A stretch of DNA of 64,000 bases, taken from Synechococcus sp. A18-25c (GTDB lineage: Bacteria; Cyanobacteriota; Cyanobacteriia; PCC-6307; Cyanobiaceae). Shown one piece after another: positions 1 to 19,867 of this stretch (positions are counted from its first letter, which is position 1; each line of letters opens with the position of its first letter). Position numbers and translations under genes: made by a program. Below the pieces are notes generated by a model that saw nothing but the letters and a program-made list of their open reading frames with translations, was not told where the DNA came from and did no database searches. The stretch lies in NCBI RefSeq assembly GCF_014280035.1, contig NZ_CP047957.1, forward strand, positions 1,116,001 to 1,180,000. The letters are read 5' to 3'.

Positions 1-62
1 TTAAAACACTGGATCCTCCTTGCCTCCACCCGAGAGGATGGTTGTTTTCACCTGACGCATTC

Positions 63-728
63 ATGTCAACGTTTCTAGTCACCGGCTCTAACCGGGGGAT
101 CGGTTTCGAGTTTTGTCGACAACTGCAGCGGCGCGGGGATCAGGTGATCGCTGTGTGCCGTGAGCCCTCAGACGAGCTTCAGGCACTACCTGTACGCATT
201 GAAGCCGGTTTGGATCAAACGTCTCGGGATGCACCCGATCAACTGGCTCGCAGGCTTGAAGGAACGGTGTTGGATGGTGTGATCCTCAATGCCGGAATTC
301 TGGAGACCATCGCTTTCGATCAGCTGGATCCTGATGCCATTCGCCGCCAGTTCGAGGTGAATGCTTTGGCTCCGCTGATGTTGGCTCAAGCTCTATCTGA
401 ATTGATGCCGGCAGGTTCCAAGTTGTCGCTCATGAGTAGCCGGATGGCGTCGATGGATGACAACACGTCTGGTGGTTCCTATGGCTATCGGATGTCGAAA
501 GCAGCTCTGAATAGTGCAGCAAAATCACTGGCCTTTGACCTGAAACCGCGTGGCATTGCTGTAGCAATTCTGCATCCTGGATTGGTTCGAACACGCATGA
601 TCCGCTTTAATCCCAACGGAATTTCTCCAGAGACCGCTGTTCGAGGACTGCTGCAAAGAATCGATGCGCTTTCCTTGGAAACGTCAGGAACATTTTGGCA
701 TGCCAATGGTGAGATTCTTCCCTGGTGA
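63..728 (+). CDS. Short-chain dehydrogenase/reductase (SDR)
   Basis: Predicted NAD(P)-dependent oxidoreductase of about 221 residues with a Rossmann fold. The N-terminal dinucleotide-binding motif reads VTGSNRGIGF. An NAG motif (LNAGIL) lies near residue 85, and the catalytic triad is visible as Ser (LMSSRM), then YGYRMSK (YxxxK) near residue 150. HPGLVRT after the catalytic helix is typical of classical cytosolic SDRs. The ATG at 63 places the glycine motif at the usual distance from the N-terminus. A TTG at 42 has a better-spaced GAGAGG upstream and would add seven residues. The substrate cannot be told from sequence. It converges on the export operon to its right. Confidence 0.88.
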   Translation: MSTFLVTGSNRGIGFEFCRQLQRRGDQVIAVCREPSDELQALPVRIEAGLDQTSRDAPDQLARRLEGTVLDGVILNAGILETIAFDQLDPDAIRRQFEVNALAPLMLAQALSELMPAGSKLSLMSSRMASMDDNTSGGSYGYRMSKAALNSAAKSLAFDLKPRGIAVAILHPGLVRTRMIRFNPNGISPETAVRGLLQRIDALSLETSGTFWHANGEILPW

Positions 729-777
729 CCCGGCTAAAAGCATCAAACGAGACCGACGATTTTTATCTCTTCTGGAC

Positions 778-2427
778 TCATTGAAGACCTGTTTGGTTCA
801 GGAGCTGATCGGCAATTCCTTCCGCATCTTGAGGCCAAATAGCTGTTTCACGATACAACGTTGATAGACGTGTATTGTAATTCTGAATCGAAAGTATTTT
901 TGAGGTAATTGCGTCTTGATATTGTTGAGCTAACTGATTAAGTGCTGTGATATCAGTGAGACCTGCATTCATTCGGGCCACTGCTGCAATATATGCAATT
1001 TTAGACGAATCAGCTGCTGCTTTCGCAGTCATGAACTCAAGCGTTGCAGAATCAAGAGCATTGATTGTCGTTCTCACGGTTTCAGTGGCACGATTACGAA
1101 TCGATTCTGCTTCAAATTCAAACGCTTTGGATTGATTAAAGTCAAAGGATGCATTGGCATCATTGACGCCACCCTGATAAAACGTCCATCGAAATCCAAT
1201 CAACGCGGAAATATCATAGTTCGAATCTCTAGACCAAACGCTGGTTGTTGTGTAGCTATCTCCATTGATTCCTGCCCCAGAGCTCTCTAATTCAACGTCT
1301 TGATTGCTGTTGAGCGAGCTCTCACTCCCTAGATAATTTGCGTTGGCAGATAAATATAGCTTCGGAAGCGTACTATTTAATTGTGAAATGCCACTCCATT
1401 TTGATCCTTCGGAGAGTTCAACTGCTTGAAGGACTCGATCATTATTTAGCCTTGCCAATGCTATTGATTCATCGAGACCAAATGGCCAGTCTGCTTGAAA
1501 TTTGCTTTCTCCTTTGGTGATAATAAAGGTTTCTTCGGGGAGTGAAACGAGTCTAGCCAGTGTGCTAGAAAACTCATAATAGGATTGGATAGACTGAATC
1601 AGTCGTGAGAGAGTGTTGTAATACGCTGCATAACTTTGGCCCAAATCCTGAAGGCTGACACGACCTGCATCGAATCTGGCTCTTTGGACTTCAGCGGAGA
1701 GCTTCTGCGATTTAGCAATGATCGTGTACGAGGTAATGAGATCTTTTTGGGCTAATAATTGGTAGTATGTCGTTTGTATTTGACTGACGAGGTCTCGAGA
1801 AAACAAATAAAATCCATAGCGTTGAGCGGAGTAAGACGCTGAAGCTGAATTGATGGTGGGTTGCCGGCTAAAGTCAAGAAATTGCCAAGTCACCTCCGCT
1901 TGAACCCGACTCGTTGCTCGGGAGTTGGTTGTGTCTGTCGTTCGACTCCTTCGAATGGTTCCAAGCGGATTCGATTGAGATGGATCAGTCTCCTCTCGAC
2001 GGTCGTTGAATGATTCGCCTCCATTGATGGTGAAGCTTTCGCTGGAAATGGAAGCAGTTGGATTCCAGGATCTGGTCGCTGCGGTCAGTCGATCTCGGCT
2101 GGATTCCAGATCACTCAGTTGTTGTTTGATTTCTGGGTTATTCGCAAATGCAAAATCGATGCACTCCTTCAGCGTGAATGACCTCGCATCTGGATAGTTT
2201 GTGCTCTTATTTAGAAAATTTTCGACTTGTTGCCAGTGTTGGGTAGAAATTGTCTGTAAAAGCTCTTTTTTAAAGAATCCTTCTGGTGCATCACTCAGTT
2301 GATCTAGGTTTATGGATAAATCATACGCATGAGAAGTAGACGCAAGTGGGACCAAACAAAGTGCCGCTATCGAAGCTTTGAAGGCCATCTTGATCGATAA
2401 CATGGTAAAGAAAAGGTTTCGTCTCAT
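778..2427 (-). CDS. TolC-like outer membrane efflux protein of the bacteriocin export operon
   Basis: Predicted outer-membrane channel of a type I secretion system, 549 residues. A cleavable signal peptide is visible (hydrophobic stretch ending LASTSHA), followed by two long helix-rich repeats typical of the OEP/TolC family (for example CIDFAFANNPEIKQQ in the first repeat and the alanine-rich LDSATLEFMTAKAAAD stretch in the second). It is the last gene of a four-gene minus-strand operon and starts 4 bases after the stop of the preceding ABC transporter. AGGTGG lies about 9 bases upstream of the ATG and supports this start. Inference: it completes a trans-envelope conduit with the HlyD adaptor and one or both ABC transporters. 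Composition is AT-richer than the core genes to the right. Confidence 0.88.
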   Translation of the reverse strand: MRRNLFFTMLSIKMAFKASIAALCLVPLASTSHAYDLSINLDQLSDAPEGFFKKELLQTISTQHWQQVENFLNKSTNYPDARSFTLKECIDFAFANNPEIKQQLSDLESSRDRLTAATRSWNPTASISSESFTINGGESFNDRREETDPSQSNPLGTIRRSRTTDTTNSRATSRVQAEVTWQFLDFSRQPTINSASASYSAQRYGFYLFSRDLVSQIQTTYYQLLAQKDLITSYTIIAKSQKLSAEVQRARFDAGRVSLQDLGQSYAAYYNTLSRLIQSIQSYYEFSSTLARLVSLPEETFIITKGESKFQADWPFGLDESIALARLNNDRVLQAVELSEGSKWSGISQLNSTLPKLYLSANANYLGSESSLNSNQDVELESSGAGINGDSYTTTSVWSRDSNYDISALIGFRWTFYQGGVNDANASFDFNQSKAFEFEAESIRNRATETVRTTINALDSATLEFMTAKAAADSSKIAYIAAVARMNAGLTDITALNQLAQQYQDAITSKILSIQNYNTRLSTLYRETAIWPQDAEGIADQLLNQTGLQ

Positions 2428-2431
2428 TGGA

Positions 2432-4639
2432 TTAATCCACCTCTGTTCTTTGTGAGCGGTATTTTTGCATCACCTCCTTCATATAATTGGAGTTTACAAG
2501 GCTGTTTTCGAAAGATCCTTCGAATTCGATTTTACCCTTTTGAAGAACAATAATGTGATCGCAGCTTTGGATTGCTGTGATCCTGTGTGCAACGACGATG
2601 CGACTGACGCCAATACTTTTCAAGTTTTCGACGATAACGCGTTGGGAATAATTATCAAGCGCCGATGTCGATTCGTCTTCTAATAAAACCTTGGGTTCGC
2701 GTAAGAGAGCACGGGCAATGCCTAGGCGCTGCCTCTGGCCTCCAGAAATATTACCAGCACCCTCGGACAAGATTGTCTCTAATTTCATGGGCAAAGCATT
2801 TATTTCTTCTGATAGATTAACAAGCTCAAGTGTTCTCCAGATTGTTTCATTTGATTCGCCCAAACCAGATGTTAAAGCATCTTTGATTGATGAAACTGGA
2901 AGAACAGTTGTTTGAAGGATTGTTCCCATCTGTGACCTGAGATGCTTGATATCAAGTTCTGATAATTCGTGCCCATCGATAAAGATTGATCCAGATTGAA
3001 TTGGATAAAAACCTAAGATGATAAGGATAATTGTTGACTTACCACATCCGCTGGGGCCAAATAAAACATTAAATTGATTAGGGTAAAGCGTGAAACTTAC
3101 TTTGTCTAAAATTATATTGTCAGACCCTGGATAAGAAAATGTGACATCTTTAAATTGAATAAGACCGTTAAGAGTGATTTGCTTTTTAATGGTATTCAAA
3201 CCCTCTTCTTGTTTTTGATGAATTAGCGGCATAGCCCGCTTGAAATCGACCCAACCTTGACCCAACACCGTATTAAATAGATCAACAAGCTGTGTAAACT
3301 TCGTTGAAAAACTAGAAAAGGCGCTCGAAAAAATAATAAAAGTGGACGCCTGTAATCCGAGTTCGTTGATATCACTTGAATTGAGTAACCGGTAAATTAA
3401 AACTGCGTAAATCAAAGACAAGCCAAAATTATTTAAAAAGCTCGATATGATTGAATTGTAGCTAGAAAGAAGATTGACATTAAAGCGAAGAGAAGTGAAA
3501 GAGAATATTGATTTACTCCATCGTTCGATAATTGATCGTTCACTCCCAGAGGTTCTAATTTGTGCAATATTATTCAATGATTGCAATGTCTCATCATAGA
3601 AATTAGCTTCTTCTTCAACGAAGCTTTTTTCGTAAACAATTTGACGTCTGAAAATACCAGTTTGTATGCCTGCAATGGTGATGATCAATCCAATCGCAAA
3701 AATACTAAGTTGCCAATCATAATTAATCATCAATCCCATGAAGCCAATCAAAGATATGATATTGATGATTGTCGATAGCGCTGATGATGATAATGACCTA
3801 AGTAGGCTGTTGACTGAAGTAACACGCGATGATAAGTCGCCAATCTTATACTGATCTAAAAACGAGATGGGATAGGAAAGAATTCTTTGGTAGATTGGAA
3901 TCTGAATCCTGAGACTTAATTTTTGTGTAAATCGAAGTAAAAAGAACGACTGAAGCCATGTCATCAACGATGAATAGAGAGCAATCACAACAGTGATTAT
4001 GAACGTTGAAATGATCCAACCGATGTTTCCGCTTGGAACAACGTCTCCTACCACTCTGGATGTGATGATTGGTGAGAGAAGTGATAGCCCTGTGACGAAA
4101 ACTGAGATTAAAGCAGCGAATATAAAATCTCTTTTGACAGCAGGGAATGAAAATTTGAGGAGTTCCCAAAAAGTATCGAGATTTTCGGGAAAGATTGGGA
4201 AAATTTCGTAAACAGTTTGATCATCTTCTTGCTCAAACTTTTTTCCGTTAATGTAGGTATTTAGTGTCGTATCGAAGATCTTTGTTTTTGATCCAATTTC
4301 ATGGATAATAACGAGTGAGCCATTTTTTTTATTGATAGTAACGAGAGGAATCTGTTCATATTTACCGTAGTCAAGACTAATGTTTGAAGGGCGATAATAG
4401 AACCCATTAGACTCTAATAAATCTTCAAGAGTGTTACGCGACTGGATTATTTGCTGTTGGTCAAGACCGAATAACTCCCTGAGTTTATTAATTAAGTTGT
4501 ATGCTTCATCTTCGATAGTGCTCTTATTGAACGACTCATGATCCTTTTGAGTTGACACATCCAGGCTAAGCAATGACTGAATTGCTTTTGATGATGCTTG
4601 GATCTCATTGAAATTATTATTTGCCATCATAGTGCTCAA
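2432..4639 (-). CDS. NHLM-type bacteriocin ABC transporter, permease/ATPase without peptidase (ABC2)
   Basis: Inner-membrane ABC half-transporter, 735 residues. The first ~150 residues are a soluble region without the Cys-His-Asp signature of a C39 peptidase. A type I exporter membrane domain follows at about 170-450, then an ATPase with Walker A GPSGCGKST, signature ISGGQRQRL and Walker B LLEDESTSALD. This matches the second transporter of NHLM (Nif11/NHLP leader microcin) export cassettes (TIGR03797-like). Its start overlaps the stop of the peptidase-containing transporter by 4 bases (ATGA), implying translational coupling and probably a heterodimer or paired function. The exact role of the second transporter is not established. 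The gene is noticeably AT-rich. Confidence 0.87.
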   Translation of the reverse strand: MSTMMANNNFNEIQASSKAIQSLLSLDVSTQKDHESFNKSTIEDEAYNLINKLRELFGLDQQQIIQSRNTLEDLLESNGFYYRPSNISLDYGKYEQIPLVTINKKNGSLVIIHEIGSKTKIFDTTLNTYINGKKFEQEDDQTVYEIFPIFPENLDTFWELLKFSFPAVKRDFIFAALISVFVTGLSLLSPIITSRVVGDVVPSGNIGWIISTFIITVVIALYSSLMTWLQSFFLLRFTQKLSLRIQIPIYQRILSYPISFLDQYKIGDLSSRVTSVNSLLRSLSSSALSTIINIISLIGFMGLMINYDWQLSIFAIGLIITIAGIQTGIFRRQIVYEKSFVEEEANFYDETLQSLNNIAQIRTSGSERSIIERWSKSIFSFTSLRFNVNLLSSYNSIISSFLNNFGLSLIYAVLIYRLLNSSDINELGLQASTFIIFSSAFSSFSTKFTQLVDLFNTVLGQGWVDFKRAMPLIHQKQEEGLNTIKKQITLNGLIQFKDVTFSYPGSDNIILDKVSFTLYPNQFNVLFGPSGCGKSTIILIILGFYPIQSGSIFIDGHELSELDIKHLRSQMGTILQTTVLPVSSIKDALTSGLGESNETIWRTLELVNLSEEINALPMKLETILSEGAGNISGGQRQRLGIARALLREPKVLLEDESTSALDNYSQRVIVENLKSIGVSRIVVAHRITAIQSCDHIIVLQKGKIEFEGSFENSLVNSNYMKEVMQKYRSQRTEVD

Positions 4640-6864
4640 TCTTCCTGATCGATGAGTTGTTTGAAAAGTGAATTATCAACTTTCATCAACTCGTTGGGGT
4701 GACCAGATTCTTTGATGTATCCTTTGTCTAAAACAACAACCTGATCAGACAGCTTTGCAGTAAGAAGTCTGTGTGCGACTGCAATCACGGTCAAATTTAA
4801 GTTCTTGATGTTTTGTATAACCATTCGCTCAGTTGGCACGTCTAATGCACTTGTAGCCTCATCAAGAAAAAGTATATTGGGTGCGGTTAGTAACGCTCTA
4901 GTAATTGAGAGACGTTGTAATTGTCCGCCACTTAAACCGTTGCCATTATCGCCCAAATATTGAGAGTATCCTTGAGGCATATTCATCACAACGTCGTCAA
5001 AACAAGCGATTTTTGCTATTTCCCTGACATGATCAAGATCGTAGTTATCGTTATACATGGTTAAATTGTCATAGATTGTTCCGCGGAATATGTTGGTTTC
5101 TTGCGAAACATAAGCGAACGACCGCCGAATTGTCTCATCGTCATATTCCATCCAGTCATGATCACCGTAGAGAATCTGCCCTTTAGAAGGTTGATAGAGA
5201 CCAACCAAATTTTTGATGAGGGTCGATTTCCCCGACCCACTTGGGCCAATGATACTAATTAACTCTCCATCCTTTATTCTTATATTGATGTCAGTTAAAA
5301 CATTTGGAGACAAGGGTGAAAATGTCTGATCTACGTTAATGACGCTAATTGATTTTGGCTTGTTAATTTTAAGTTGAGTTTGCTTGTTATCAGATTCGAA
5401 ATTAAGCTTCGAATCAACTAATTGTGATTTGTACTGATCAAGGGATCGCACCTTGGGGTCATTTTCAACCAATCTTAAGTCTTGAAGTCTTCCAAGCTCA
5501 GCTTCAGCTTGCTGGAGTTGATCCAAAAGATTTGAAACGCTGAGTAGAGGGCCTGTGATTTCGTTGCGTAAAACTTGGAAAGCCATAAATCCAGCCAAAT
5601 TCATGCTTCCCTGCATCACCAAAAAACCTGAGAAAGCAATCGTTCCGTAGTTATAAAGTGTATTTGATAAATCTGTGAGAAAGTCAAAGGAATTCATTTT
5701 GCTCTGAACCTCTTGGCTTTTCTCTAAAATGGGACTATAAAAATCTTGATACGTCGATAAATATCTGTTTTCAAGTCCCGATGCTTTGATCGTTCTTGTA
5801 TCACTCAGCATTCTCACTGTGATGCCATAGACTTTGCCTAATTCAACCTGAATTGATCGATTTGAATCAATTAACATACTGGCAGCAATCGATGCTAGTG
5901 TAATGTTAACCAGTACATAAATTAGAGATATGACCGTCAATTGCCATGAGATTAAAAGTAAAAAAGGGATGATTAAAGCAGCTCCGATCAGGCCCAGGAC
6001 GAATATTAGGAACTGATTGATCAATGTGTTGGCAATGTTCTCAGACAGTTTAAGTCTGCTTGCGATGTCACCAATGAATCGACTCGTGTAAAATTGATAG
6101 TCGACTGATAATATTTTGAAGGATATTTCGACAGATAATCGTCTTTGAATGGAGAGAGCAAGTCGTCGGACGACATTCAATTGAACACTAGTCAGAGACG
6201 CTGCCAGAATGACCATCAACAATGACAACCACATAATGGGAAGCCCAAGTTCATACCTTTGGTCCCCTAAAAATGATTGAACAAATGCACCCGATAATCC
6301 AGGTGTTGCAAGTGATGTCACGAGCAGCGCAGTGGATATCAATAAGAGAAAATAAATCGAAACTTGATAGCCTCCTATAATCGGCAGAAAGTTGAGAATT
6401 TCCCGCTCGGGCCGCCCTGATTTCTCGAAAGTATCTTGCTTGTTAAACTGTAAGAGTAAACCTGAAAATTTATTGCTCAGCTCCGTTTCACTGACTTTGT
6501 ATTTACCTCCACCAGGATCAGCAATGCGTAAAAACTTTCCATTCGTACTTTCAAAGACGACAAAATGGTTGTAATTCCACCAAGCAATGCAGGGAAAATC
6601 TACTTTTCCATCTAGGATTTCTCTTGGTCTTTGTTTGCCTACTTTTACATTGAGGCCGTAGTGAATTGCAGCTTTCTTGAGGTTTAACATATTGCTACCA
6701 TCTCGACTGACTCCGCATTGATAACGAAGATCCGATAATGGCAAATACTTACCAAAATATTGGAGAATCATTGATAATGATGCTGCTCCGCATTCAACCA
6801 TCTCGTATTGAAGAACGAGTGGAACTTTCCTTCGGAAGAATGCTGGTATTAGAGTTTTTTTCAT
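4636..6864 (-). CDS. NHLM-type bacteriocin export ABC transporter with C39 leader peptidase (PCAT)
   Basis: Peptidase-containing ABC transporter, 742 residues, expected to cleave double-glycine leaders and export the mature peptide. The N-terminal C39 domain (about 12-145) shows the catalytic Cys in MVECGAASL, the His in NYNHFVVFE and the Asp in RIADPGGGKY. A six-helix exporter domain (about 165-450) and an ATPase follow, with Walker A GPSGSGKST, signature LSGGQLQRL and Walker B ILFLDEATSALD. This is the expected partner of Nif11-type precursors such as those at 33.4, 45.2, 49.5 and 60.8 kb, though that pairing is inferred. It overlaps both neighbours by 4 bases. No precursor or modification enzyme adjoins it. 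Confidence 0.92.
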   Translation of the reverse strand: MKKTLIPAFFRRKVPLVLQYEMVECGAASLSMILQYFGKYLPLSDLRYQCGVSRDGSNMLNLKKAAIHYGLNVKVGKQRPREILDGKVDFPCIAWWNYNHFVVFESTNGKFLRIADPGGGKYKVSETELSNKFSGLLLQFNKQDTFEKSGRPEREILNFLPIIGGYQVSIYFLLLISTALLVTSLATPGLSGAFVQSFLGDQRYELGLPIMWLSLLMVILAASLTSVQLNVVRRLALSIQRRLSVEISFKILSVDYQFYTSRFIGDIASRLKLSENIANTLINQFLIFVLGLIGAALIIPFLLLISWQLTVISLIYVLVNITLASIAASMLIDSNRSIQVELGKVYGITVRMLSDTRTIKASGLENRYLSTYQDFYSPILEKSQEVQSKMNSFDFLTDLSNTLYNYGTIAFSGFLVMQGSMNLAGFMAFQVLRNEITGPLLSVSNLLDQLQQAEAELGRLQDLRLVENDPKVRSLDQYKSQLVDSKLNFESDNKQTQLKINKPKSISVINVDQTFSPLSPNVLTDINIRIKDGELISIIGPSGSGKSTLIKNLVGLYQPSKGQILYGDHDWMEYDDETIRRSFAYVSQETNIFRGTIYDNLTMYNDNYDLDHVREIAKIACFDDVVMNMPQGYSQYLGDNGNGLSGGQLQRLSITRALLTAPNILFLDEATSALDVPTERMVIQNIKNLNLTVIAVAHRLLTAKLSDQVVVLDKGYIKESGHPNELMKVDNSLFKQLIDQED

Positions 6865-8303
6865 GGCTGATTAAGTTCTAAACGGATTAACTTATCCGGA
6901 GGTGCGATCCCGATTATTTCTCTGAGTGCTGGTATCAGCATTTGGATTGGCGTGCTGACTCTGGTCGTGATTTGGGTGGAGAGTAAAAACCCTTCTCTTG
7001 GAGAGATCGGAGGGTTACTTCTGTTATTCCAAACATATCGACCACTTTTGTCGCGCACGATTGAATTGGTCTCACCGTCGAGGATCGGTACCGATGCTGT
7101 TGTGCTCGCTTCCTTGCGTAGTTTTGTGAGATCTCTCGTTTTTAATCTCACATTCACCTGGTAAACACTTCCCTGTGGGCTAACCACAGTCGCCAGGCCT
7201 TGAGAATTCAACCTCGAAGCCAGTGTTGCTGTGGTGAAAGGGATTGATTCAAGTGAGTCTATTTGACCTTTGATTCCACCGATTTCGGCTGAACTAAAGC
7301 CCAAAGGCGTCAAAATGACTTCTTGGCCAATGTCCACCTGAGTTGCAGCACGCTGATCGATAAAGACAGGGATTACGGATGGCTCTGAAACATTTGACCA
7401 ACTGACGGTCATAATTTCTGAACCAGGTTGAACAAAGTCCCATTGACTTGATGTAAATGATTGAACATAGGCAGCATCAAATGCAAATACTACAGAATCT
7501 CTCAGGAATTGAGATAATGAATCGATTAGATTTGATTGATTATTCTTAATTTCAAGCTCTAGACGTTGCAAATTTGATGACAAGTCAGAGACTGCAATTC
7601 TCGATTGCGTTGTTTCGGCAAGGGCTTGATTCAGCTCGAGTTGAGATACGAAACCCTCTTTTACGAGTGGTCCGAGTGGTTGTATCAGCGCGTTCTGTGA
7701 CTCCTCAACTTTTTTACTGAGCGCTAAAGACTCTTGATTGATTTTGATTAGATTTTGGTAATTTGAAATCGACCTCTTAAGGCTGAGGAGATTGTTTTGA
7801 AGTTCTTGCCTTGCAGACGGTTGGTCGATGATTGCAACAATATCGCCTTCGTTCATTTTGACAGTGTAGTTGCCACCTGTTTCAAGCCCACCACTGAATA
7901 AGCTCATTGGCATACGGCTTGTTTGGAGTTGATTCAAATAGTCGAGGATCTGTTCGGTCAATACAACTGATTCTTCAAATGTTGTGGTTTTGCTGTTGGT
8001 GTTAAATGCGTAGGCTCTTTGGGACCAACTTGGAATCATATATTCAACTTCTTTGGTCTGTTTGTTTTGTGTAAACGGGAGAAGGATCCTCCCTGCTGAT
8101 TGAGACTGATAAGTGAAAAGACCGTCAACTGGGGCGAGAACGCCAAGTCCATTGACCTGCACTGGGATTGGTGCTGTGAAACCCCAAACTGCAGTTATCC
8201 CTGCTAACCCTATAAAAATTCCTCCAGCAATGACATTGGGAGAATTGAGAACAGCAGTTGTCGAAATCTTCCTAGGCACTTTATTTTGCAGCTTGTTATC
8301 CAT
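6861..8303 (-). CDS. HlyD-family periplasmic adaptor of the NHLM bacteriocin secretion system
   Basis: Membrane-fusion protein of 480 residues and first gene of the export operon. One N-terminal transmembrane segment (about 30-50) is followed by a biotinyl-lipoyl-like region with the NGLGVLAP motif. A long alpha-helical hairpin spans about 165-260 (LQNNLLSLKRSISNYQNL and the region ending ELEIKNNQSNL), and a beta-barrel domain forms the C-terminus. This matches NHLM_micro_HlyD-type adaptors (TIGR03794-like), which link an inner-membrane ABC exporter to TolC. Its stop overlaps the transporter start by 4 bases. A possible promoter lies just upstream (TAAAAT near 8346). Confidence 0.87.
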   Translation of the reverse strand: MDNKLQNKVPRKISTTAVLNSPNVIAGGIFIGLAGITAVWGFTAPIPVQVNGLGVLAPVDGLFTYQSQSAGRILLPFTQNKQTKEVEYMIPSWSQRAYAFNTNSKTTTFEESVVLTEQILDYLNQLQTSRMPMSLFSGGLETGGNYTVKMNEGDIVAIIDQPSARQELQNNLLSLKRSISNYQNLIKINQESLALSKKVEESQNALIQPLGPLVKEGFVSQLELNQALAETTQSRIAVSDLSSNLQRLELEIKNNQSNLIDSLSQFLRDSVVFAFDAAYVQSFTSSQWDFVQPGSEIMTVSWSNVSEPSVIPVFIDQRAATQVDIGQEVILTPLGFSSAEIGGIKGQIDSLESIPFTTATLASRLNSQGLATVVSPQGSVYQVNVRLKTRDLTKLRKEASTTASVPILDGETNSIVRDKSGRYVWNNRSNPPISPREGFLLSTQITTRVSTPIQMLIPALREIIGIAPPDKLIRLELNQP

Positions 8304-8711
8304 GCGGAAGACTAATTTGCGCTTGGCTGCAAAGCCATATTTTTTATTTTAGCAGAGAATTTTGTGCCTGCAAGCTTGCTTGCTCTCCTTTTTCTTTGCC
8401 GCCATTGGTTGTTGTCTCATTCATTAAGGTTGAATTTCTTGCTTGTTTTGTATTGCTGACTTTTGGCGCCTTGTTTTTAGTTGTTGCTTTCCGGAGGCAC
8501 AGGCTTTGATAAGTTTGTTTTCATTCTCTAGAGATTCACTGCAACCCTGAATTTTTAATCTTTTTGGGATAGATATTATAGTATCCATATTTGCATGTAT
8601 CACTGAGCTGTTGTTCGTCCTGTCCCCTTCGTTTTTGAGTACAAAAACCCTTGCGTGCGTCTTTATATTTGGTTTAGAACTGAGACAATAACCCTAGAGG
8701 AGGAAGTGAAA
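8304..8711. promoter_or_regulatory. Divergent AT-rich intergenic region between export operon and small membrane gene
   Basis: About 400 bases with no convincing gene. It must carry divergent promoters. For the minus-strand export operon a -10-like TAAAAT is at 8346-8351, about 43 bases before the start codon. For the plus-strand gene a TATTATAGT stretch lies near 8574 and a strong AGAGGAGG ribosome binding site at about 8696-8703. The promoter calls are weak pattern matches. The region is rich in T-runs but no terminator hairpin was recognised. Confidence 0.3.
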
Positions 8712-8996
8712 ATGCTTTCTCTTGCCGCATTCAGCCTTCTGGTCTTGCTGAATCTAGTAGTGCTCGATCATCTTGCCAGCAAGATGGTTCGGCGCTATGG
8801 AGAGTGGCGTCAAGCCAAGCGATTTGTTGGCGGGCATCCTGAAATGCAGGGTGTTGATCTTCAGAATGACCCCTTGGTGCATTACACAGCAGATGCTGCC
8901 CTAAAAGCTTTCGTTCTCGATAATGAAGACCCTGGCGAAGATCGTCCCTTCATGTCTGGTCTTTCTGGCGATTTTGAAGACATTGACTACGACTGA
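8712..8996 (+). CDS. Small membrane-anchored protein of unknown function
   Basis: 94-residue protein with one N-terminal hydrophobic segment (LAAFSLLVLLNLVVLDHL) followed by a basic stretch (KMVRRYGEWRQAKRF) and a strongly acidic C-terminus ending FEDIDYD. The ATG at 8712 is fixed by an AGAGGAGG Shine-Dalgarno site 8 bases upstream. I do not recognise a family; the layout suggests an inner- or thylakoid-membrane anchor with a cytoplasmic tail. It is divergent from the export operon and upstream of the J-domain gene. Confidence 0.7.
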   Translation: MLSLAAFSLLVLLNLVVLDHLASKMVRRYGEWRQAKRFVGGHPEMQGVDLQNDPLVHYTADAALKAFVLDNEDPGEDRPFMSGLSGDFEDIDYD

Positions 8997-9120
8997 GTCG
9001 GCCTTCGTTGCGCAGTAGCTTCCACCAACGCTCTGATGAGCTTCCATGCTGTGCTGATCTTCGGCCTTTAATGCCAAGCTGGAGGCCTTCGACGCTGAAT
9101 TGAGGCTTGGCCTCATCACC

Positions 9121-9924
9121 ATGGGTTTTGATCCTCGTGATTGGTCAGCGACATCTCATGACATCCCAACCGGGAAGGCTCGCGGCGAGCGTGTAACGAG
9201 CAACGTTGAAGCCCTCCTGCGCGAAAATGATTCCCTTCGCCGTGAAGTTCATCGCCTTGAGCTGGAGCTTGATCATTGTCGACGTCGCCAATGGCAACGA
9301 CCGCGGCGAGAGCCTTTCTCACGTGAGTCATGGCAGCAGTCGTCAACCCAGTCTCCGCCGAGAGTGACAGCGACGCAGGTTCAACGTTGGGGTGCTTCTC
9401 TTGCTGATCAGAGGGGCTGGACCGAGCTGAGAGCCACTGGCTTGGTTGCACTGATCGATCAGCTCAACCGTGACAGCTTTCATGCTCAGCTGACGTTGCA
9501 GCAACGGCTTGATCGCTTGGTGACTGGATTGGGGACCGACCTTTTTGCTGCTGTTGGTTCTCGTTCCAGCAAACGTTCCATGGCCGTTCTGGCTGCGTTT
9601 GCCCTGTATGGCGTTCGAGCGAGTGAATGGTTGGATGAAGATCCTGCCCGGGTTGTGGAGGAGCTGCACCAACGCCAACGACGTGAGCGAACAGCCAGGT
9701 CCGGTCGCCGAACACGCAGTGATCAACGCAGAACCGACCGCGATTGGCGCGAACGGGATCCACGAATGGACGCGTTGTCTGTTCTCGGCCTTGACGCGTC
9801 AGCGACGCAGGATGTGATCAAGCAGGCATTTCGCCAGCTTGTGAAGCAGCATCATCCGGATGTGGGTGGATCAGCTGAATCCTTCCGACGCGTGAATGAT
9901 GCTTATCAACTGCTGATGTCTTGA
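9121..9924 (+). CDS. J-domain (DnaJ-like) protein
   Basis: 267 residues. The J domain is at the C-terminus (about 215-266): the helix II region VIKQAFRQLVKQ is followed by the diagnostic HHPDVGG motif, so the protein can probably stimulate an Hsp70 ATPase. There is no Gly/Phe region or zinc-finger domain, so it is not a canonical DnaJ. The N-terminal half contains a charged coiled-coil-like helix (ENDSLRREVHRLELELDHC) and an arginine-rich linker precedes the J domain. The 3' end overlaps the convergent hydrolase gene by 19 bases. The client or pathway is unknown. Confidence 0.8.
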   Translation: MGFDPRDWSATSHDIPTGKARGERVTSNVEALLRENDSLRREVHRLELELDHCRRRQWQRPRREPFSRESWQQSSTQSPPRVTATQVQRWGASLADQRGWTELRATGLVALIDQLNRDSFHAQLTLQQRLDRLVTGLGTDLFAAVGSRSSKRSMAVLAAFALYGVRASEWLDEDPARVVEELHQRQRRERTARSGRRTRSDQRRTDRDWRERDPRMDALSVLGLDASATQDVIKQAFRQLVKQHHPDVGGSAESFRRVNDAYQLLMS

Positions 9925-10745
9925 AGCCACCTCTGCACGCAGTTCACACATTGCTTGGTTGACTCGTAGGGCAAAACGTTGCGTCCGTCGATGGTCTGAA
10001 TCACAGCATTGTTCAGTTTGGAGTTGTAAGTGTTCAGTCGCTCCTCAACATCGTCCCAGTTGCTCGAGCGACCGATCCCTGTCGCTGAACGGCCAAAGAC
10101 CACCAGGAACGGGACGTTGACTGCTGTGAGAGCGGGTTCCCAGCCACGTCTCCAGAATCCCGCCAGAAAGGAGAAGACGGCCCAGCGGGTGTCCATCTTT
10201 TTTGAACCCTCATGGAGTGTCTCAATCCACTCCTCATCCACATCATCCTGACAAGCAAACAGATTGTTCTTTGAAAAGCTGTTTAGAAAGCTCCGTCGTC
10301 GTGCATAGCGATAGAAGAGAGTCCCAAGCGTGCCATTGAACAGAACGTTCCAGAGTTGGTTTGATCGTTGCGTTGGAAACGTGTCCCTCAGCACCCGCCA
10401 TCCTGGGGGACTTATCGCAATCAATCCGCTCACCAATTGAGGAGCTTCGGCCATAACGGCCAGGGCAATTGGTAACGATGCACCTTGAGCTACGAGGATC
10501 ACAGGCGGTGAATTCCGTCGCTTCAGTGGTTCCAATAATGCTGTGGCCCAGTCCTCCGGAGTCAGTGGCTGCCTGGGACATGCTGCGAAGCCGCATCCAA
10601 GCAGATCAGGCGCAATGAGCTCGCGCCCATCGCCCGTCTCAGACCAGTGATCGATGAAGCGATGCCAAAACTGAGCTGAAAGTCCAACGCCGATGGGATG
10701 AATCAGCAACAGCGGAGACTTGGCCGAAATGTTTTGATCCGTCAT
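9906..10745 (-). CDS. Alpha/beta-hydrolase fold protein
   Basis: 279-residue predicted hydrolase. HPIGVGLSAQFWHRF is the usual oxyanion/HG region of the family, followed by LIAPDLLGCGFA. The nucleophile-elbow region reads LVAQGASLP, so the expected Gly-x-Ser-x-Gly motif is degenerate (AQGAS) and catalytic assignment is uncertain. Similar proteins in cyanobacteria are annotated only as alpha/beta hydrolases. ATG at 10745 is preferred to the GTG at 10748 because GAGGTG is then correctly spaced. The start codon and ribosome binding site lie inside a long inverted repeat (10741-10784), suggesting translational control. Confidence 0.82.
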   Translation of the reverse strand: MTDQNISAKSPLLLIHPIGVGLSAQFWHRFIDHWSETGDGRELIAPDLLGCGFAACPRQPLTPEDWATALLEPLKRRNSPPVILVAQGASLPIALAVMAEAPQLVSGLIAISPPGWRVLRDTFPTQRSNQLWNVLFNGTLGTLFYRYARRRSFLNSFSKNNLFACQDDVDEEWIETLHEGSKKMDTRWAVFSFLAGFWRRGWEPALTAVNVPFLVVFGRSATGIGRSSNWDDVEERLNTYNSKLNNAVIQTIDGRNVLPYESTKQCVNCVQRWLQDISS

Positions 10746-10784
10746 CACACCTCGACATGAGGTCCATCATGTCGAGGTGATGAC
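10741..10784 (-). promoter_or_regulatory. Near-perfect hairpin covering the RBS and start codon of the hydrolase gene
   Basis: The arms 10741-10760 and 10767-10784 are complementary over 18 bases with a 2-base bulge and a 6-base loop. In the minus-strand mRNA the 3' arm contains the GAGGTG ribosome binding site and the ATG at 10745. The 5' arm contains the complementary CACCTC. There is no U-tract, so it is not a terminator. A structure this stable should block ribosome entry unless it is opened. Confidence 0.6.
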
Positions 10785-10820
10785 GTTGACCGCGTGACTT
10801 CGCTGATGGTTGCTTGATCT

Positions 10821-11009
10821 TCAGCAGTCTTCAGGACGAGGGCAGGGCATTAAGGGAAGGCATTCACCCGAGGGGTTTAACCACTCTTCGAACTCACGAC
10901 GAATGGCTTCCGCTTCCGATGTTCGCTCCATGCTGTTGAGAAGCTTGCTGCGTTGACGGCTGTAGTCAACGGCAGCACCAATCAGTTCAATCGCCTGTTC
11001 GCTGGTCAT
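10821..11009 (-). CDS. Small conserved-looking hypothetical protein
   Basis: 62-residue protein with a helical, charged body (ERTSEAEAIRREFEEWL) and a cysteine/proline-rich tail (CLPLMPCPRPEDC). The reading frame stays open upstream to 11162, but that extension is Cys/His-rich with low-likelihood residues. The ATG at 11009 is therefore preferred, although it has no clear Shine-Dalgarno site. It lies 76 bases upstream of the hydrolase gene on the same strand and could be co-transcribed. No family recognised. Confidence 0.5.
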   Translation of the reverse strand: MTSEQAIELIGAAVDYSRQRSKLLNSMERTSEAEAIRREFEEWLNPSGECLPLMPCPRPEDC

Positions 11010-11200
11010 GAGATGGGTGCTTTCTTCACAACATGGTTGGCAGACCACTCGAGTTCGGTAGTGGCAAAAGTGACCATTCCATGCATTGATTGGGTTATGG
11101 CACCGATGCCAATCGGGATGACATCCAAGACTTGCGCACGTGTCGCCATGACGACGAGACAACGATGCGTTCTTAGGCTCCGCGCAGAGCGAGTTGAATT

Positions 11201-11407
11201 ATGAATCCCAAGCAGGTGGGCGCCCTCAGGCGAGCAGCGATCTATTTCGTTGTTGGATATGGCGGCCTGGCAGTCGTTAACAATGCCGGCATTGCTCCCG
11301 AACGGATGTGGATGGCTTATCTGCCTCTCTTCATAGGGGTCTACTTCTTCGCCCGTTGGGCTGATGCGCGTCTCGCAGCCATGGGCAACAACAAAACCGA
11401 TGGCTGA
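11201..11407 (+). CDS. Small two-helix membrane protein, unknown
   Basis: 68 residues with two predicted membrane segments (AAIYFVVGYGGLAVVNNAG and MWMAYLPLFIGVYFFARWA) and a basic, Asn-rich tail. The ATG at 11201 is the first in frame, and GAGCGAG a few bases upstream may serve as a weak ribosome binding site. I do not recognise the family. It converges on the hli transcript, whose terminator lies 66 bases beyond the stop. Confidence 0.6.
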   Translation: MNPKQVGALRRAAIYFVVGYGGLAVVNNAGIAPERMWMAYLPLFIGVYFFARWADARLAAMGNNKTDG

Positions 11408-11472
11408 CCATCTCGCTGTTGCCTTGCTTTTGATGGGGGCAGTGTGCCTGCCAGTTGCCGATTAATTCCAAT

Positions 11473-11500
11473 AAAAAACCCCCGCAACTCGTTGCGAGGG
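11473..11500 (-). terminator. Rho-independent terminator of the hli transcript
   Basis: Stem CCCTCGCAA/TTGCGGGGG-type hairpin followed on the minus strand by a run of six U (plus-strand AAAAAA at 11473-11478). It lies 25 bases after the last gene of the hli pair. Confidence 0.8.
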
Positions 11501-11524
11501 ATTGATTCGTTGGCGAGAACACCC

Positions 11525-11644
11525 TCAGCGGTCACGCTTGAGATAAGGCAGGTCGCTGGGCCTGGACAGGGTGTAAACCACGGCGGCAGTGATGGCGGCA
11601 CCGAAGGCGAGCATCGCGTAAATCCAAATGGAGTAGTCCGTCAT
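11525..11644 (-). CDS. 39-residue single-pass membrane protein coupled to hli
   Basis: Very short protein with one hydrophobic helix (IYAMLAFGAAITAAVVYTL) and a basic tail ending LPYLKRDR. Its ATG shares one base with the stop codon of hli (TGATG), so it is almost certainly translated by coupling, and the terminator follows directly. The size and layout recall small photosystem-associated subunits, but it does not match psbN or another small subunit I know. Inference: a partner of the Hli protein in the thylakoid membrane. Confidence 0.65.
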   Translation of the reverse strand: MTDYSIWIYAMLAFGAAITAAVVYTLSRPSDLPYLKRDR

Positions 11645-11850
11645 CAGCTCAATCCAAGAACGCCAAAAGTGATCTGGCTCAGCACGCCATGACCGGTCAA
11701 TGCTTCGGTGGCAACGCCAATCACGAAACCCAGCATCGCGACTCTGCCGTTAAGTAACTCAGCTCGAACGAGGCGCTCACCCTTGATTTGGGACGCCGCT
11801 GCATCCTGAAACCATTGATCCTGCGTTTGAGGTTGTGATGCGGAATTCAT
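11644..11850 (-). CDS. hli: High-light-inducible protein (Hli/Scp family)
   Basis: 68-residue one-helix CAB-like protein. The conserved chlorophyll-binding helix appears as AELLNGRVAMLGFVIGVATE (the E..NGR.AM.GF signature), preceded by a polar N-terminus and followed by a hydrophobic end (GHGVLSQITFGVLGL). Family members bind chlorophyll and carotenoid and protect photosystem assembly intermediates under high light or other stress. The gene is followed by a coupled 39-residue membrane protein and a strong terminator. Confidence 0.92.
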   Translation of the reverse strand: MNSASQPQTQDQWFQDAAASQIKGERLVRAELLNGRVAMLGFVIGVATEALTGHGVLSQITFGVLGLS

Positions 11851-11943
11851 GAAACCCTTCTGTGTAAAGCAATGTTAAGTGCTTGTGTGAAGGAATGCAA
11901 CGCTCTGTCGGGTCGCGCTTCAAGGCCTGGGGCGAAGTCGTCG

Positions 11944-12045
11944 CTAAGGGGGCAGGTACTCAGCGATCGACGCCTGGGGAGGCTGGTTGTTTGGTCGTTT
12001 GAGTCCGTCAACTTCGTCTTGCAGCATGCGCATGTGTGTGGCCAT
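11944..12045 (-). CDS. Possible 33-residue ORF upstream of hli
   Basis: Reads MATHMRMLQDEVDGLKRPNN and ends IAEYLPP. The open frame extends 18 codons further upstream (an amphipathic stretch with REALTQQ) without a recognisable start. It could be a small coiled-coil protein or the remnant of a longer one. Upstream and downstream, about 12046-12365 and 11851-11943, I see no other gene. Confidence 0.3.
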   Translation of the reverse strand: MATHMRMLQDEVDGLKRPNNQPPQASIAEYLPP

Positions 12046-12365
12046 CTGCTGAGTCAGGGCTTCGCGCGCTCCCCGGTCTTGTGCGTCTGCGCTGTTGCTG
12101 AGTGCGGATCACCAAGGGATCGCCGCATTGCTGCTTCGACGGCTTAGCTAAGGCTCAGGCTGAAGCTCCTCGCCTTGGCGATCGCTTCAAGCTGGTCCAA
12201 CAGCTCTGCGAACAGATCCAGGGTGACGGATCGAGTGAGGTGGATGTGTGTTCAAGAGAAGTGTGTGGGATTGGATGTGTGTAGTCGAAGGTCGTTTCAA
12301 TGGATTGTTCGCTGCGGCCTGCCGTTGGGAAGCGGTCGACCGGTTGGCAAACTGGTCAAGAACAA

Positions 12366-12395
12366 TTGTCACTGTGACAGTTGGCTTGCCATATT
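12366..12395 (+). promoter_or_regulatory. Promoter candidate for the Yfr2-like RNA
   Basis: A -35-like TTGTCA at 12366-12371 and a -10-like CATATT at 12390-12395 with an 18-base spacer place a start near 12400-12403, immediately 5' of the structured RNA. Pattern match only. Confidence 0.4.
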
Positions 12396-12399
12396 TGTT

Positions 12400-12489
12400 C
12401 TGTGAGGAAAAAACGCCTCACGGGGTGGAAACAAGGCAACACTCCCTTGAAGCGTTTTCAAATCCCTGCCTTCGGCGGGGATTTTTTTT
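12400..12489 (+). ncRNA. Yfr2-family small RNA candidate
   Basis: About 90 bases with three possible hairpins: GTGAGG...CCTCAC at 12402-12420; GGGGTG...CACTCC at 12422-12444, whose loop carries GGAAACAAGGCAACA; and a terminator AAATCCCTGCC-TTCG-GGCGGGGATTT followed by eight T. The Yfr2 family of cyanobacterial ncRNAs is characterised by unpaired GGAAACA motifs and a 3' terminator. One exact copy and one near copy (GGCAACA) are seen here. No coding potential and a fitting promoter upstream. The family call is from memory of the motif. Confidence 0.6.
12460..12489 (+). terminator. Rho-independent terminator of the Yfr2-like RNA
   Basis: A strong stem with a TTCG tetraloop is followed by TTTTTTTT on the plus strand. 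There is no protein gene directly upstream on this strand, which supports a stand-alone RNA. Confidence 0.8.
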
Positions 12490-12536
12490 GTCATTCTGCA
12501 GTCTCTTTCGTCTTTGGTTGAAGCGGTGTGCACCCT

Positions 12537-13157
12537 TCAAAGCCAGGATTCTGAGAGCGGCTGCAACATGCCGTTTGCGTCGTATCGACGAACGATCTGG
12601 CGTCGGTCACCTTCGATGCCGATCCAGCGGAGGCCACAGACCGTGGTGTCGCCAGTGGAGCGTTGTCTTGTGTCGAGCAGCAACTCCACATCGGGTTCCG
12701 GCCTCCAGACGCTCCAATCTCCTTGTTTCTCCATCCGGCATTGAACTGGGATTCGAGGAGGTTCTGGTGGCGTCGCCCCCTTGGCTTCAATGACATACAC
12801 CACCTGATCGAGGCCGCTGGCGCCATGCCGCACGACAATCCGGCGGCGCTCTTCTCCTCGCACGACGCACATTTCCCCCACCCAGTTGAACGGTGTGATG
12901 GAGCTAGGCCCCAGTGTCCATCCCCCGGCTGGGCTCACCTGCATGGTGTAGGGAAGCTCGAGGAAATTCATCGAGCGCTGTTGGCCGCTGTTGAGATAGG
13001 TGAGCTTCGTCTGGATCACCCCGTTCACATCTTCCACACTCAGTGTGGTGTTGAATCGATCGTTTTCGCTCCCATCCGCACGCAATCGGATGAAGCATCC
13101 CTGCCAACTGCCGCTGTTGTGTTGCAGTAGAGCGGCCCTGGGGTCGTGGTTCACCAT
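12537..13157 (-). CDS. DUF3598-like protein (calycin-type fold)
   Basis: 206-residue soluble protein resembling the cyanobacterial DUF3598 family, which has a lipocalin-like beta barrel related to phycobilin lyase folds. An early NSGSWQGCFIRL strand is followed by alternating beta strands, including RRRIVVRHGASGLDQVVYV near the middle and a C-terminal RRYDANGML. No enzyme residues can be assigned. An ATG at 13175 would add six residues; neither start has a good ribosome binding site. It stands alone on the minus strand between the ncRNA and the holin-like gene. Confidence 0.65.
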   Translation of the reverse strand: MVNHDPRAALLQHNSGSWQGCFIRLRADGSENDRFNTTLSVEDVNGVIQTKLTYLNSGQQRSMNFLELPYTMQVSPAGGWTLGPSSITPFNWVGEMCVVRGEERRRIVVRHGASGLDQVVYVIEAKGATPPEPPRIPVQCRMEKQGDWSVWRPEPDVELLLDTRQRSTGDTTVCGLRWIGIEGDRRQIVRRYDANGMLQPLSESWL

Positions 13158-13291
13158 CGTTGGATCATTCCCCATGGACCGTAGAAAGCTCTGGGAGTCT
13201 GGTGCGAGTGATGCTGCTGATCCTCAGGCAGGCAGCATTGAAAAACCACCCTCGGTGACACCTAGCTTGAGATCCTCTTCAGGTTGTACCG

Positions 13292-13702
13292 ATGGGATTG
13301 ATCGGCTGGTTGTTGCAATGGCCTGTTCGGGGCTTCGTGTTGCTTCTTGTGGCGGTGATGCCGCTGGGCGTGGAACTGTCCAGTTTTCAATCGGCACTGA
13401 CCTCGGCTGTCGTCATCGGTCTGCTCGGGACCTTGTTGATTGTTCCCTTGAAACTGGCACTTGCGTTGCCTTGGGCGTTGGCCAGCTTGGGTGGCTTGAT
13501 CGCACCGGTGAGTTGGTTGTTCGACTGGATTATCACGGTGATGTTGTTCGCTCTTGCTTCATCACTGGTGGATGGATTCCGCCTCAAAAATGGTCTTAGC
13601 AGCGCTCTTCTCGGAGCTGTGGCTTACAGCGTGCTGAGCACTGTGTTCATCCGAGTTTTGGGACTAGGGGATGTTGGCTTGCTCAGAGCGGCTGGCGGCT
13701 GA
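13292..13702 (+). CDS. Phage-holin-4-like small membrane protein
   Basis: 136 residues with four hydrophobic segments (for example GFVLLLVAVMPLGVEL, AVVIGLLGTLLIVPL, WLFDWIITVMLFALASSL, LSSALLGAVAYSVLSTVF). This is the pattern of the phage-holin-family membrane proteins that are common as chromosomal genes in cyanobacteria. Nothing phage-like surrounds it, so a housekeeping membrane role is more likely than lysis. It converges on the cyAbrB gene. Confidence 0.65.
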   Translation: MGLIGWLLQWPVRGFVLLLVAVMPLGVELSSFQSALTSAVVIGLLGTLLIVPLKLALALPWALASLGGLIAPVSWLFDWIITVMLFALASSLVDGFRLKNGLSSALLGAVAYSVLSTVFIRVLGLGDVGLLRAAGG

Positions 13703-13753
13703 ACGCTGATGCTCGTTTTGCCTCCACACCAGTCTTCGTGGCGAGTCAGCATG

Positions 13754-13778
13754 AAAAAGGCCCTCCCTCGGAGAGCCT
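13754..13778 (-). terminator. Terminator downstream of cyAbrB
   Basis: Stem AGGCTCTCC/GGAGGGCCT in the minus-strand transcript followed by five U (plus-strand AAAAA at 13754-13758), 33 bases after the cyAbrB stop. Confidence 0.7.
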
Positions 13779-13810
13779 GATCAACGACCATCACCGTTGG
13801 CAGATGAGGA

Positions 13811-14188
13811 TCAGTCTTCGCTGCCTTCTTCGTCTTCTGCACCCATGGGAACAAGGGTCACACCTTTTTTCTTAGAAAGTTTGATTGTGAACTCGTCGCC
13901 AGGCTGCAAATCAAGCATGGCTGTGTAGGCCTTGCCCACCAGGAGGTTGCCGTTGCCTTGAACAACAGCTTTGTAGGACAACTTGCGCCCACCTTTGCCG
14001 ACGCCTGCAGAACCGCCACCAAGATCAACTCCCTTGGCGTTGAGCAGTGCTTCGTAAAACGCTGTGAAGTTCACACGGTCTGAACCGTCTTTCTTCTTGG
14101 AGACATAGCCACACGCTGTGGCCAAATCGGTTTTACTCACATCTCCAAGGTCTTTGACTTTGGCAAGCAGTTCAGCACCAGTGAGCAT
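13811..14188 (-). CDS. cyAbrB-type transcriptional regulator
   Basis: 125 residues. The N-terminal part (LLAKVKDLGDVSKTDLATACGYVSKKKDG) and the C-terminal AbrB-like DNA-binding region (GKGGRKLSYKAVVQGNGNLLVGKAYTAML, LQPGDEFTIKLSKK) are the signature of cyanobacterial AbrB proteins, which regulate nitrogen, carbon and redox genes globally. A Gly-rich linker and an acidic tail are visible. Which paralogue (cyAbrB1 or cyAbrB2) it is cannot be decided here. Starts at ATG 14188 and has its own terminator. Confidence 0.88.
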   Translation of the reverse strand: MLTGAELLAKVKDLGDVSKTDLATACGYVSKKKDGSDRVNFTAFYEALLNAKGVDLGGGSAGVGKGGRKLSYKAVVQGNGNLLVGKAYTAMLDLQPGDEFTIKLSKKKGVTLVPMGAEDEEGSED

Positions 14189-15600: not shown

Positions 15601-16068
15601 ATGGAGCAATCGCACCATCAGCTTGTCCGTGCAGCGGCTGCCCTTGTGGTTCCGTTCATGCTGACGTCCTGCACCGGTGGTGAAGCGCTGAAACGTTTCT
15701 CGTTCACAGCCGAAGCCATGGGCCCCCAGGTCGCCACTATTGACCTGCCTCGGGACGGGACGTTGAGCTTCTGGAACAGTCTTGATCTCGGTTATGAAGA
15801 AGGCACCTCTGTTGCTTTCAAGCTGTCCATCCAACGTCCGGGTGACCCGCAACCCACTGAGGTGATCTGTGATGCACTTACGCCATCGATGACCCTCATG
15901 TCCTCGATGGTGCAGGTGCAAAATCGCATCAACCAATCCTGGAAACTGGCTCGGATGCGCTGTGGATTCGGTCCGGTTCCTGAGGCCCAGCAGATGCAGG
16001 TGAGCGCTGTGCCGGTTGTCTCTCGACCTGTTGAGATCAGACGGCTGGATCTTGAGTTGAAGCGCTGA
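15601..16068 (+). CDS. Putative lipoprotein, unknown function
   Basis: 155 residues. The N-terminus has a lipoprotein-type signal (AAAALVVPFMLTSC, Cys near residue 24), so it is probably anchored to a membrane facing the periplasm. The mature part is beta-rich (VATIDLPRDGTLSFWNSLDL, VAFKLSIQRPGD) with a methionine-rich middle and an RRLDLELKR C-terminus. The ATG at 15601 is chosen because it puts the lipobox at the right distance. No family recognised. Confidence 0.6.
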   Translation: MEQSHHQLVRAAAALVVPFMLTSCTGGEALKRFSFTAEAMGPQVATIDLPRDGTLSFWNSLDLGYEEGTSVAFKLSIQRPGDPQPTEVICDALTPSMTLMSSMVQVQNRINQSWKLARMRCGFGPVPEAQQMQVSAVPVVSRPVEIRRLDLELKR

Positions 16069-16112
16069 GATTTACGCTCCGGCGATTCAAACCTCCTCAG
16101 GAGGCGGGGTTC

Positions 16113-16337: not shown

Positions 16338-16496
16338 TTCGCCGCGGTTGCCGGTACCGCTGCTGCAGAAAGCCTTGTTGCCAGTTTCTGTGAATTAATA
16401 TTTAGCGCAAGCAATGGCTCGTCTGAACTATTAATAAGTTTTTTGTGTGACGTCGCGATCGCAAATGCCTGAATCCCGATTATTTCATTAATCCAC

Positions 16497-17357: not shown

Positions 17358-17448
17358 TCCATCGGAGCGGCGAGGCCACCAAGGCAGGTTGTTTCGACTT
17401 GTTCTGGGGGCCTCGCTGGTGCAACGTTGATGTGTCGTGACAGATCCC

Positions 17449-19851: not shown

Positions 19852-19867
19852 GTGGGATCACGGCCTG

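Follow-up and report, generated by a model that had tools for sequence, protein, structure and literature searches.

The 64,000-nucleotide stretch of Synechococcus sp. A18-25c analysed here (the window) runs from position 1,116,001 to 1,180,000 of the single contig that makes up this 2.51-Mb genome (G000:C1:1116001-1180000), and near its left end, at 778-8303, four genes on the reverse strand form an operon for a C39-type exporter. The first gene (6861-8303) encodes a HlyD-type periplasmic adaptor of 480 amino acids, and is followed by genes for an ABC transporter of 742 amino acids with an N-terminal C39 peptidase (4636-6864), a second ABC transporter, of 735 amino acids, with ATPase motifs and no C39 domain (2432-4639), and a TolC-type outer-membrane channel of 549 amino acids (778-2427). 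The coordinates of the open reading frames (ORFs) bear out the tight packing described in an earlier sequence-only reading: the HlyD and C39-ABC genes overlap by 4 bases, as do the two ABC genes, and a gap of 4 bases separates the second ABC gene from that for TolC, the overlap of the ABC genes resting on a TTG start with an ATG available 3 codons downstream. Gene order is the same in G023, G008 and G028, three of the 30 relatives that with G000 constitute the genus set (31 genomes, 24 of them at least 90% complete). Residues C25, H100 and D116 of the C39-ABC protein are invariant across six aligned exporters, four of the window type and two others, and in both ABC proteins the ATPase motifs of the family, Walker A, signature, Walker B and H-loop, can be recognized; the three residues correspond to the catalytic ones of C39 peptidases. 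The Cys, His and Asp and the ABC motifs by which a C39 peptidase-containing ABC exporter is recognized are all present by sequence, and the operon is of a known kind, the C39 exporter operons. Pfam assigns Peptidase_C39 (PF03412, 108.6 bits against a cut-off of 22), ABC_membrane and ABC_tran to the first ABC protein, ABC_membrane and ABC_tran to the second, and OEP (PF02321, 111.6 bits against a cut-off of 22) to the TolC protein; at E 0.001 there is no match for HlyD and no cyclic-nucleotide-binding domain in the second ABC protein.

The best NCBIfam models are TIGR03794 for HlyD (55.5 bits), TIGR03796 for the C39-ABC protein (590.1 bits) and TIGR03797 for the second ABC protein (457.3 bits), and the three genes adjoin each other in the arrangement of an NHLM cassette. 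The curated cut-offs are 156.2, 853.3 and 709.4 and, because all three scores are below them, the operon is not classed among these NHLM equivalogs; the earlier label ‘NHLM-type’ holds for best-matching models and not for membership. Nor are the cut-offs reached by HlyD and the ABC proteins from the LanM-linked exporter described below, or by the proteins tested from G189 and G028:C12. As far as the available part of Haft et al. 2010 (PMC2887384) describes it, the NHLM/NHLP cassette has the same three components and comes with the same idea of precursors encoded away from it; the window operon differs in its scores, in having a TolC gene within it, and in that no adjoining NHLP or N11P precursor was found (the nearest N11P is 4.7 kb away), such a neighbor being frequent, not required, in that account. 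Group V of the cyanobacterial bacteriocin clusters, in the portion of Wang et al. 2011 (PMC3140520) that defines it, also combines HlyD, a short-type C39-ABC protein and an additional ABC protein without C39, but that additional protein has the long-type domain make-up, which the Pfam search did not find in the window counterpart. By its description, the PteB/EbfG biofilm system of Synechococcus elongatus, where a C39 exporter is needed for efficient secretion of small double-glycine (GG) proteins, is a further likeness (PMC4997328, in part), though no short GG gene was found beside the window operon. C39 exporters in cyanobacteria are described in the consulted parts of PMC3140520 and PMC10783134, and PMC4997328, similarly limited, has a C39 exporter and small GG proteins acting in biofilm formation.

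That the operon is AT-rich, as had been noticed from the letters alone, is evident when it is set against the rest of the genome. Its GC content is 0.406 compared with 0.591 in a 200-kb genome sample (20 stretches of 10 kb), and the GC content at third codon positions (GC3) of its four genes, 0.37-0.40, is under that of every one of 124 sampled ORFs of at least 200 codons, these being called greedily by length and not annotated genes. In codon-usage distance none of the 124 surpasses the HlyD gene or either ABC gene, and one surpasses that for TolC. Because all six homologous operons read are AT-richer than their surroundings (GC 0.39-0.49, with 0.48-0.65 in the rest of the stretch fetched), AT-richness alone is weak evidence of acquisition.

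Acquisition is supported by empty sites in eight relatives together with the patchy distribution and the composition. The operon lies between two forward-strand genes identified by ORF calls, family searches and comparison with relatives, an SDR gene at 42-728 and a DnaJ-domain gene at 9121-9924, whose ATG at 9121 fits the start in relatives. In eight of the 30 relatives (G002, G003, G004, G011, G018, G019, G020 and G022) SDR and DnaJ-like matches are in the same order and 4-46 bp apart, and the DNA at seven of these eight sites has the DnaJ ATG shortly after the SDR stop, the same ends as 728 and 9121 here. The stretch marked off by the empty sites, 729-9120, comprises the operon, an upstream region of about 350 bp (GC 0.39) and a small forward-strand ORF at 8655-8996, of 113 amino acids from a GTG with an in-frame ATG at 8712 and a hydrophobic N-terminus. 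This ORF is 85% identical in G023, is absent from the SDR/DnaJ site in those relatives whose stretches were read, and has no Pfam, NCBIfam or phage match. In seven other genomes (G008, G009, G013, G016, G017, G025 and G028) the two neighbors diverge from each other at a distance of about 100 bp and do not enclose the operon, and in a further eight (G001, G006, G007, G012, G015, G021, G024 and G027, of which only the stretch from G021 was read) they are 1.9-7.6 kb apart with no HlyD match between; in G005, G010 and G029 the contigs differ or the distance is large, and one or both were not found in G014, G026 and G030. No 9-mer is common to 651-800 and 8301-9130 in either orientation, and there is no tRNA in the window. 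Carriage by phage or plasmid was considered and set aside, as HlyD has no close relative among viral contigs and just two matches, at 22%, among plasmids. The C39-ABC protein is matched by 622 phage-collection records, none reaching 60% identity, as expected of a general exporter family.

Within the genus a HlyD homolog of at least 63% identity is present in four of the 31 genomes, G000 included. The operon is at the same site in one of the 30 relatives, G023 (HlyD 84%), and beside a ClpB-like gene in G028 (64%) and G008 (63%). Some HlyD match at E 0.001 is found in 17 of the 31 genomes, 15 of these at least 90% complete, mostly to other exporters. Of 400 family genomes, G000 among them and drawn from a larger group, six have a HlyD match at E 1e-40 or better, the two additions being G160 and G189 at 37-38%. 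A scan of genome contigs outside the family with the HlyD sequence found no relative, and one with an alignment of the ABC proteins gave, among the best 80 of 562 matches, none closer than 37%, though records near G000 may be missing. In trees of 91 and of 24 C39-ABC proteins the four of the window type group with those of G160, G189 and G028:C12, with support of 100 in both; the five LanM-linked exporters from picocyanobacteria that were included fall outside this group. The program gave a warning about the meeting of long branches, of which G028:C12 is one, and its placement is unsure. HlyD searches agree, with the same three relatives ranking next. Between G000 and G023 the proportion of nonsynonymous differences (pN) in the operon genes, 0.085-0.15, is well below that of synonymous differences (pS), 0.58-0.78 (by a simple counting method, with one gene saturated), and on that account the operon is under purifying selection. 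The upstream regions of the HlyD genes align poorly among the four genomes, with no common control element seen. Promoter-like sites are at shuffled expectation (17 compared with 17.0) and terminator-like sites number 10 where shuffling gives 6.2 (standard deviation 2.9); neither was used as evidence.

The genome has a single LanM match (G000:1862413-1863486), about 738 kb from the operon, and it comes last in an operon of overlapping genes, TolC-HlyD-C39 ABC-ABC-LanM (G000:1862320-1872989). It carries a CCG motif, which PMC10783134, in the part available, ties to ProcM-like enzymes. Because this one LanM has its own complete exporter, the window operon, which contains no LanM gene, is a second export system and not the only outlet. 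The two operons share TolC, HlyD, C39-ABC and ABC genes with 4-base overlaps, but the LanM-linked one ends in LanM, has TolC first and a GC content of 0.55-0.58, and its C39-ABC protein is 35% identical and in another clade; by GC3 and codon measures it is ordinary except for HlyD, whose GC3 is undercut by only four of the 124 sampled ORFs. LanM is present in all four genus genomes with the window-type exporter compared with eight of the 27 others (one-sided Fisher p 0.016, uncorrected for ancestry, the four being two pairs). In all 12 LanM genomes a HlyD match is 4.4-6.6 kb from a LanM, and a second LanM, with no HlyD match nearby, is present in both G008 and G023. There are two further C39 matches in G000, at 2302634 and, weaker, at 106973. 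A third C39 exporter with a HlyD-like gene lies near a 1345-amino acid ORF (L063:9429-12769, GC 0.49-0.50), and a 1009-amino acid protein with a weak C39 match is encoded near a HlyD-family gene (L069:8203-13024).

Candidate cargo for the window operon is plentiful in the genome, and none was found beside the operon. The genome search that the sequence-only reading had proposed gave 50 Nif11 matches, 35 of them with a GG motif by pattern. Four of the GG-type precursors (Nif11 match plus GG pattern) are in the window, at 33420-33653 on the forward strand and at 45208-45465, 49544-49780 and 60750-60977 on the reverse strand, 25-53 kb from the operon, and are possible cargo in trans. The nearest is just beyond the window, at G000:1111794-1112069, 4.7 kb downstream of the operon with other genes between; it is unlikely to be dedicated cargo as it has no match around the exporter in G023. 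A strict GG-motif scan of ORFs in G000:1096001-1150000 and the G023 stretches found no cargo near the operon, a looser motif in G000:1113001-1130000 and G023:1518001-1537000 gave only chance-looking frames or parts of larger genes, and a third pattern, run on the window plus 433 kb from elsewhere in G000, turned up no further candidate in the vicinity of the operon. The earlier statement that the operon carries neither precursor nor modification enzyme is thus extended to no GG cargo found within 4.7 kb and no LanM-like protein in window positions 1-20000, within the limits of imperfect scans and of a search in which other kinds of modification enzyme were not sought one by one. Neither a composition equal to that of the genome with synteny in all relatives, nor a nearby outside precursor as sole substrate, was encountered.

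From these data the following picture is drawn, to which we give a probability of roughly 0.6: the operon is an inserted second exporter for GG peptides, kept by purifying selection, and is most likely supplied with cargo by GG precursors whose genes are in other parts of the genome. Two ABC subunits, one bearing the C39 domain, would be joined through the HlyD adaptor to the TolC channel to give a one-step export channel; the C39 domain, judged by its residues, would cut double-glycine leaders and the pump would move the freed peptide outside the cell. Insertion between the SDR and DnaJ-like genes would have taken place in the lineage of G000 and its nearest relative, G023. As neither precursor nor LanM appears to have come with the operon, cargo in trans is the most likely, and the operon would supplement, as a second outlet, the exporter encoded together with the only LanM gene. 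The sequence-only reading's ‘working in trans’ is retained as the default, being consistent with the lack of cargo found in cis and the many GG precursors elsewhere; cleavage, export and use of these precursors by the operon are what we infer from the genes. Cargo in trans is not a new idea, since the consulted part of PMC2887384 reports precursors distant from modification and export genes.

Several points weigh against this picture. The NHLM scores are all under their cut-offs, no donor of the operon was found, and the GG scans miss some true precursors (the strict one G000:1111794, the third that at window 49544). Export of the prochlorosin-like peptides could be managed by the LanM-linked exporter unaided. 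Between G000 and G023 the operon has roughly double the pS of the LanM-linked operon (0.28-0.36) and a higher one than the flanking genes that were compared (0.27-0.54). It is therefore uncertain whether the operon was inserted once and then passed on by ordinary vertical descent; the values would also suit its replacement, a renewed acquisition at this site, or a looser constraint on codons. There may be nothing more to it than faster drift in AT-rich genes: between G008 and G028 operon pS is 0.40-0.54 where that of ClpB is 0.28 and that of two other nearby AT-rich genes 0.47-0.50. An AT-rich gene of 644 codons near the operons of G008 and G028 was tried as a linked partner and rejected, because the search found it in G013 too (81%) but not in G023, and gave no more than partial matches in G000 (35%) and G007 (40%). 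Near the ClpB-like gene and exporter of G008 there is also an AT-rich gene for a Methyltransf_7 protein (SAM-dependent carboxyl methyltransferase; L056:3096-4115), with a homolog at the same place in G028 (L057:6003-7070).

Other explanations bear on the origin of the operon or on what passes through it. It may equally well be that AT-richness marks a slowly ameliorating cassette that moves within picocyanobacteria, not an import from outside, which is compatible with any of the views of its cargo. The presence of HlyD in only six of the 400 family genomes, the lack of close viral or plasmid relatives, the AT-richness of all six operons relative to their surroundings, and the like grouping of the pairs G000/G023 and G008/G028 in both exporter clades all point that way, but the search outside the family amounts to the empty HlyD scan and the best 80 of 562 matches with the ABC alignment.

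As to cargo, the operon is possibly, with the odds somewhat against it, a redundant second outlet for Nif11 (prochlorosin-like) precursors. Of the 35 GG Nif11 precursors in G000, 34 have Cys in the core, all four exporter genomes have LanM, and a pattern search of the G023 stretches gave nine GG peptides, every one with core Cys and a Nif11-type leader; that precursors can be distant from the relevant genes (the part of PMC2887384 noted above) would allow it. Yet the HlyD match near LanM in 12 of 12 genomes means that the majority of LanM genomes do without the window type, and the window C39-ABC protein is in a different clade from the LanM-linked ones.

A division of labor, with the operon chiefly exporting linear unmodified GG peptides while the LanM-linked exporter serves lanthipeptides, is rather unlikely, though some observations speak for it. 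G000 has at least seven GG peptides with short leaders (22-36 amino acids) and Cys-free cores, in three clusters shared with prochlorosin-like genes and found by GG pattern (L073:5765-5944, 10046-10204, 10290-10460 and 10506-10688; L072:6203-6367 and 6629-6778; L061:14674-14829). Their leaders begin MSEE, MSKE, MED or MEE and end in the Nif11-like GG motif, and some of them and a Nif11 gene have an RCYDQAV-like in-frame stretch before the start in common. Separately, a Nif11 leader in the same genome breaks off at G000:801134 with a GG tail in a separate frame just after (L070:15080-15265), likely a decayed precursor. The DNA read around seven members of the window-type clade gave no LanM-like protein, LanM being the only enzyme sought, and GG cargo directly adjoining related exporters has cores free of Cys. 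The exporters concerned are those of G189 (L214:14140-19971 and L215:82-10311) and G028:C12. By the exporter of G189 there are two short-leader Cys-free GG ORFs at 0.1-0.7 kb and a third at 7 kb, with a histidine kinase and response regulator 8-10 kb off and no TolC gene seen adjoining; in G160 a response regulator directly adjoins the exporter. At G028:C12 three tandem precursors of NHLP-like type, with cores lacking Cys and TIGR03793 scores below the cut-off, diverge from the exporter (L058:10777-13552). G008 has a 33-amino acid short-leader GG ORF (955814-955915) 1.9 kb from TolC, with no counterpart found in G000 or G023, and the G028 contig ends 0.5 kb past TolC, cutting off the view on that side. 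Short-leader matches at E 1e-5 or better occur in three of the four exporter-bearing genus genomes and three of the 27 others (p 0.016). But the genomes with these matches (G000, G005, G008, G016, G025 and G028) all have LanM, so that the short peptides track LanM (six of 12 LanM genomes, none of 19 others), and within the 12 the association with the exporter is gone (3/4 compared with 3/8, p 0.27). The profile, built from G000 and G028 peptides, favors those genomes, and two of the three G028 cores read have Cys. Further, G023 has the exporter and one partial short-leader match (E 0.003), a CxxCxxCC-domain gene is beside the NHLP-like genes of G028:C12, with two Cys-containing Nif11 precursors farther on, and Cys-containing Nif11-type peptides are 11-12 kb from the exporters of both G028:C12 and G189. 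Because these facts on neighboring cargo pull both ways, no cargo class is claimed.

A bolder and distinctly improbable extension is that prochlorosin-producing marine Synechococcus run two channels, one, LanM-linked, taking lanthipeptides and the other, acquired separately and modification-free, taking little-noticed linear GG peptides whose genes seem to have been derived from those for prochlorosins through loss of the central part of the Nif11 leader; in the titles and abstract openings searched no description of a second LanM-free exporter or of short Cys-free peptides in these strains was seen, which is not a claim of their absence from print. That the operon exports a substrate without GG, or is a disused leftover, would fit the lack of cargo beside it in the GG scans, the low NHLM scores and the HlyD without a Pfam match, and is very doubtful given open frames, catalytic C39 residues conserved in four window-type and two other exporters, and pN below pS in both pairs, even if for TolC between G008 and G028 the values are just 0.21 and 0.40.

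If the picture of an inserted second GG-peptide exporter with cargo encoded elsewhere is right, it bears on the question of how the products of many scattered prochlorosin precursors leave the cell, for which export without dedicated transporters has been raised as a possibility (PMC10783134, in the part available). Channel use can be compared cleanly in a genome that has two distinct and complete exporters, of which just one is linked to LanM. The insertion described here, beside which no cargo was found, also points to an ability of such export cassettes to travel as a unit and leave cargo behind, in agreement with the mix-and-match idea put forward in the accessible portion of Haft et al. 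2010 (PMC2887384).

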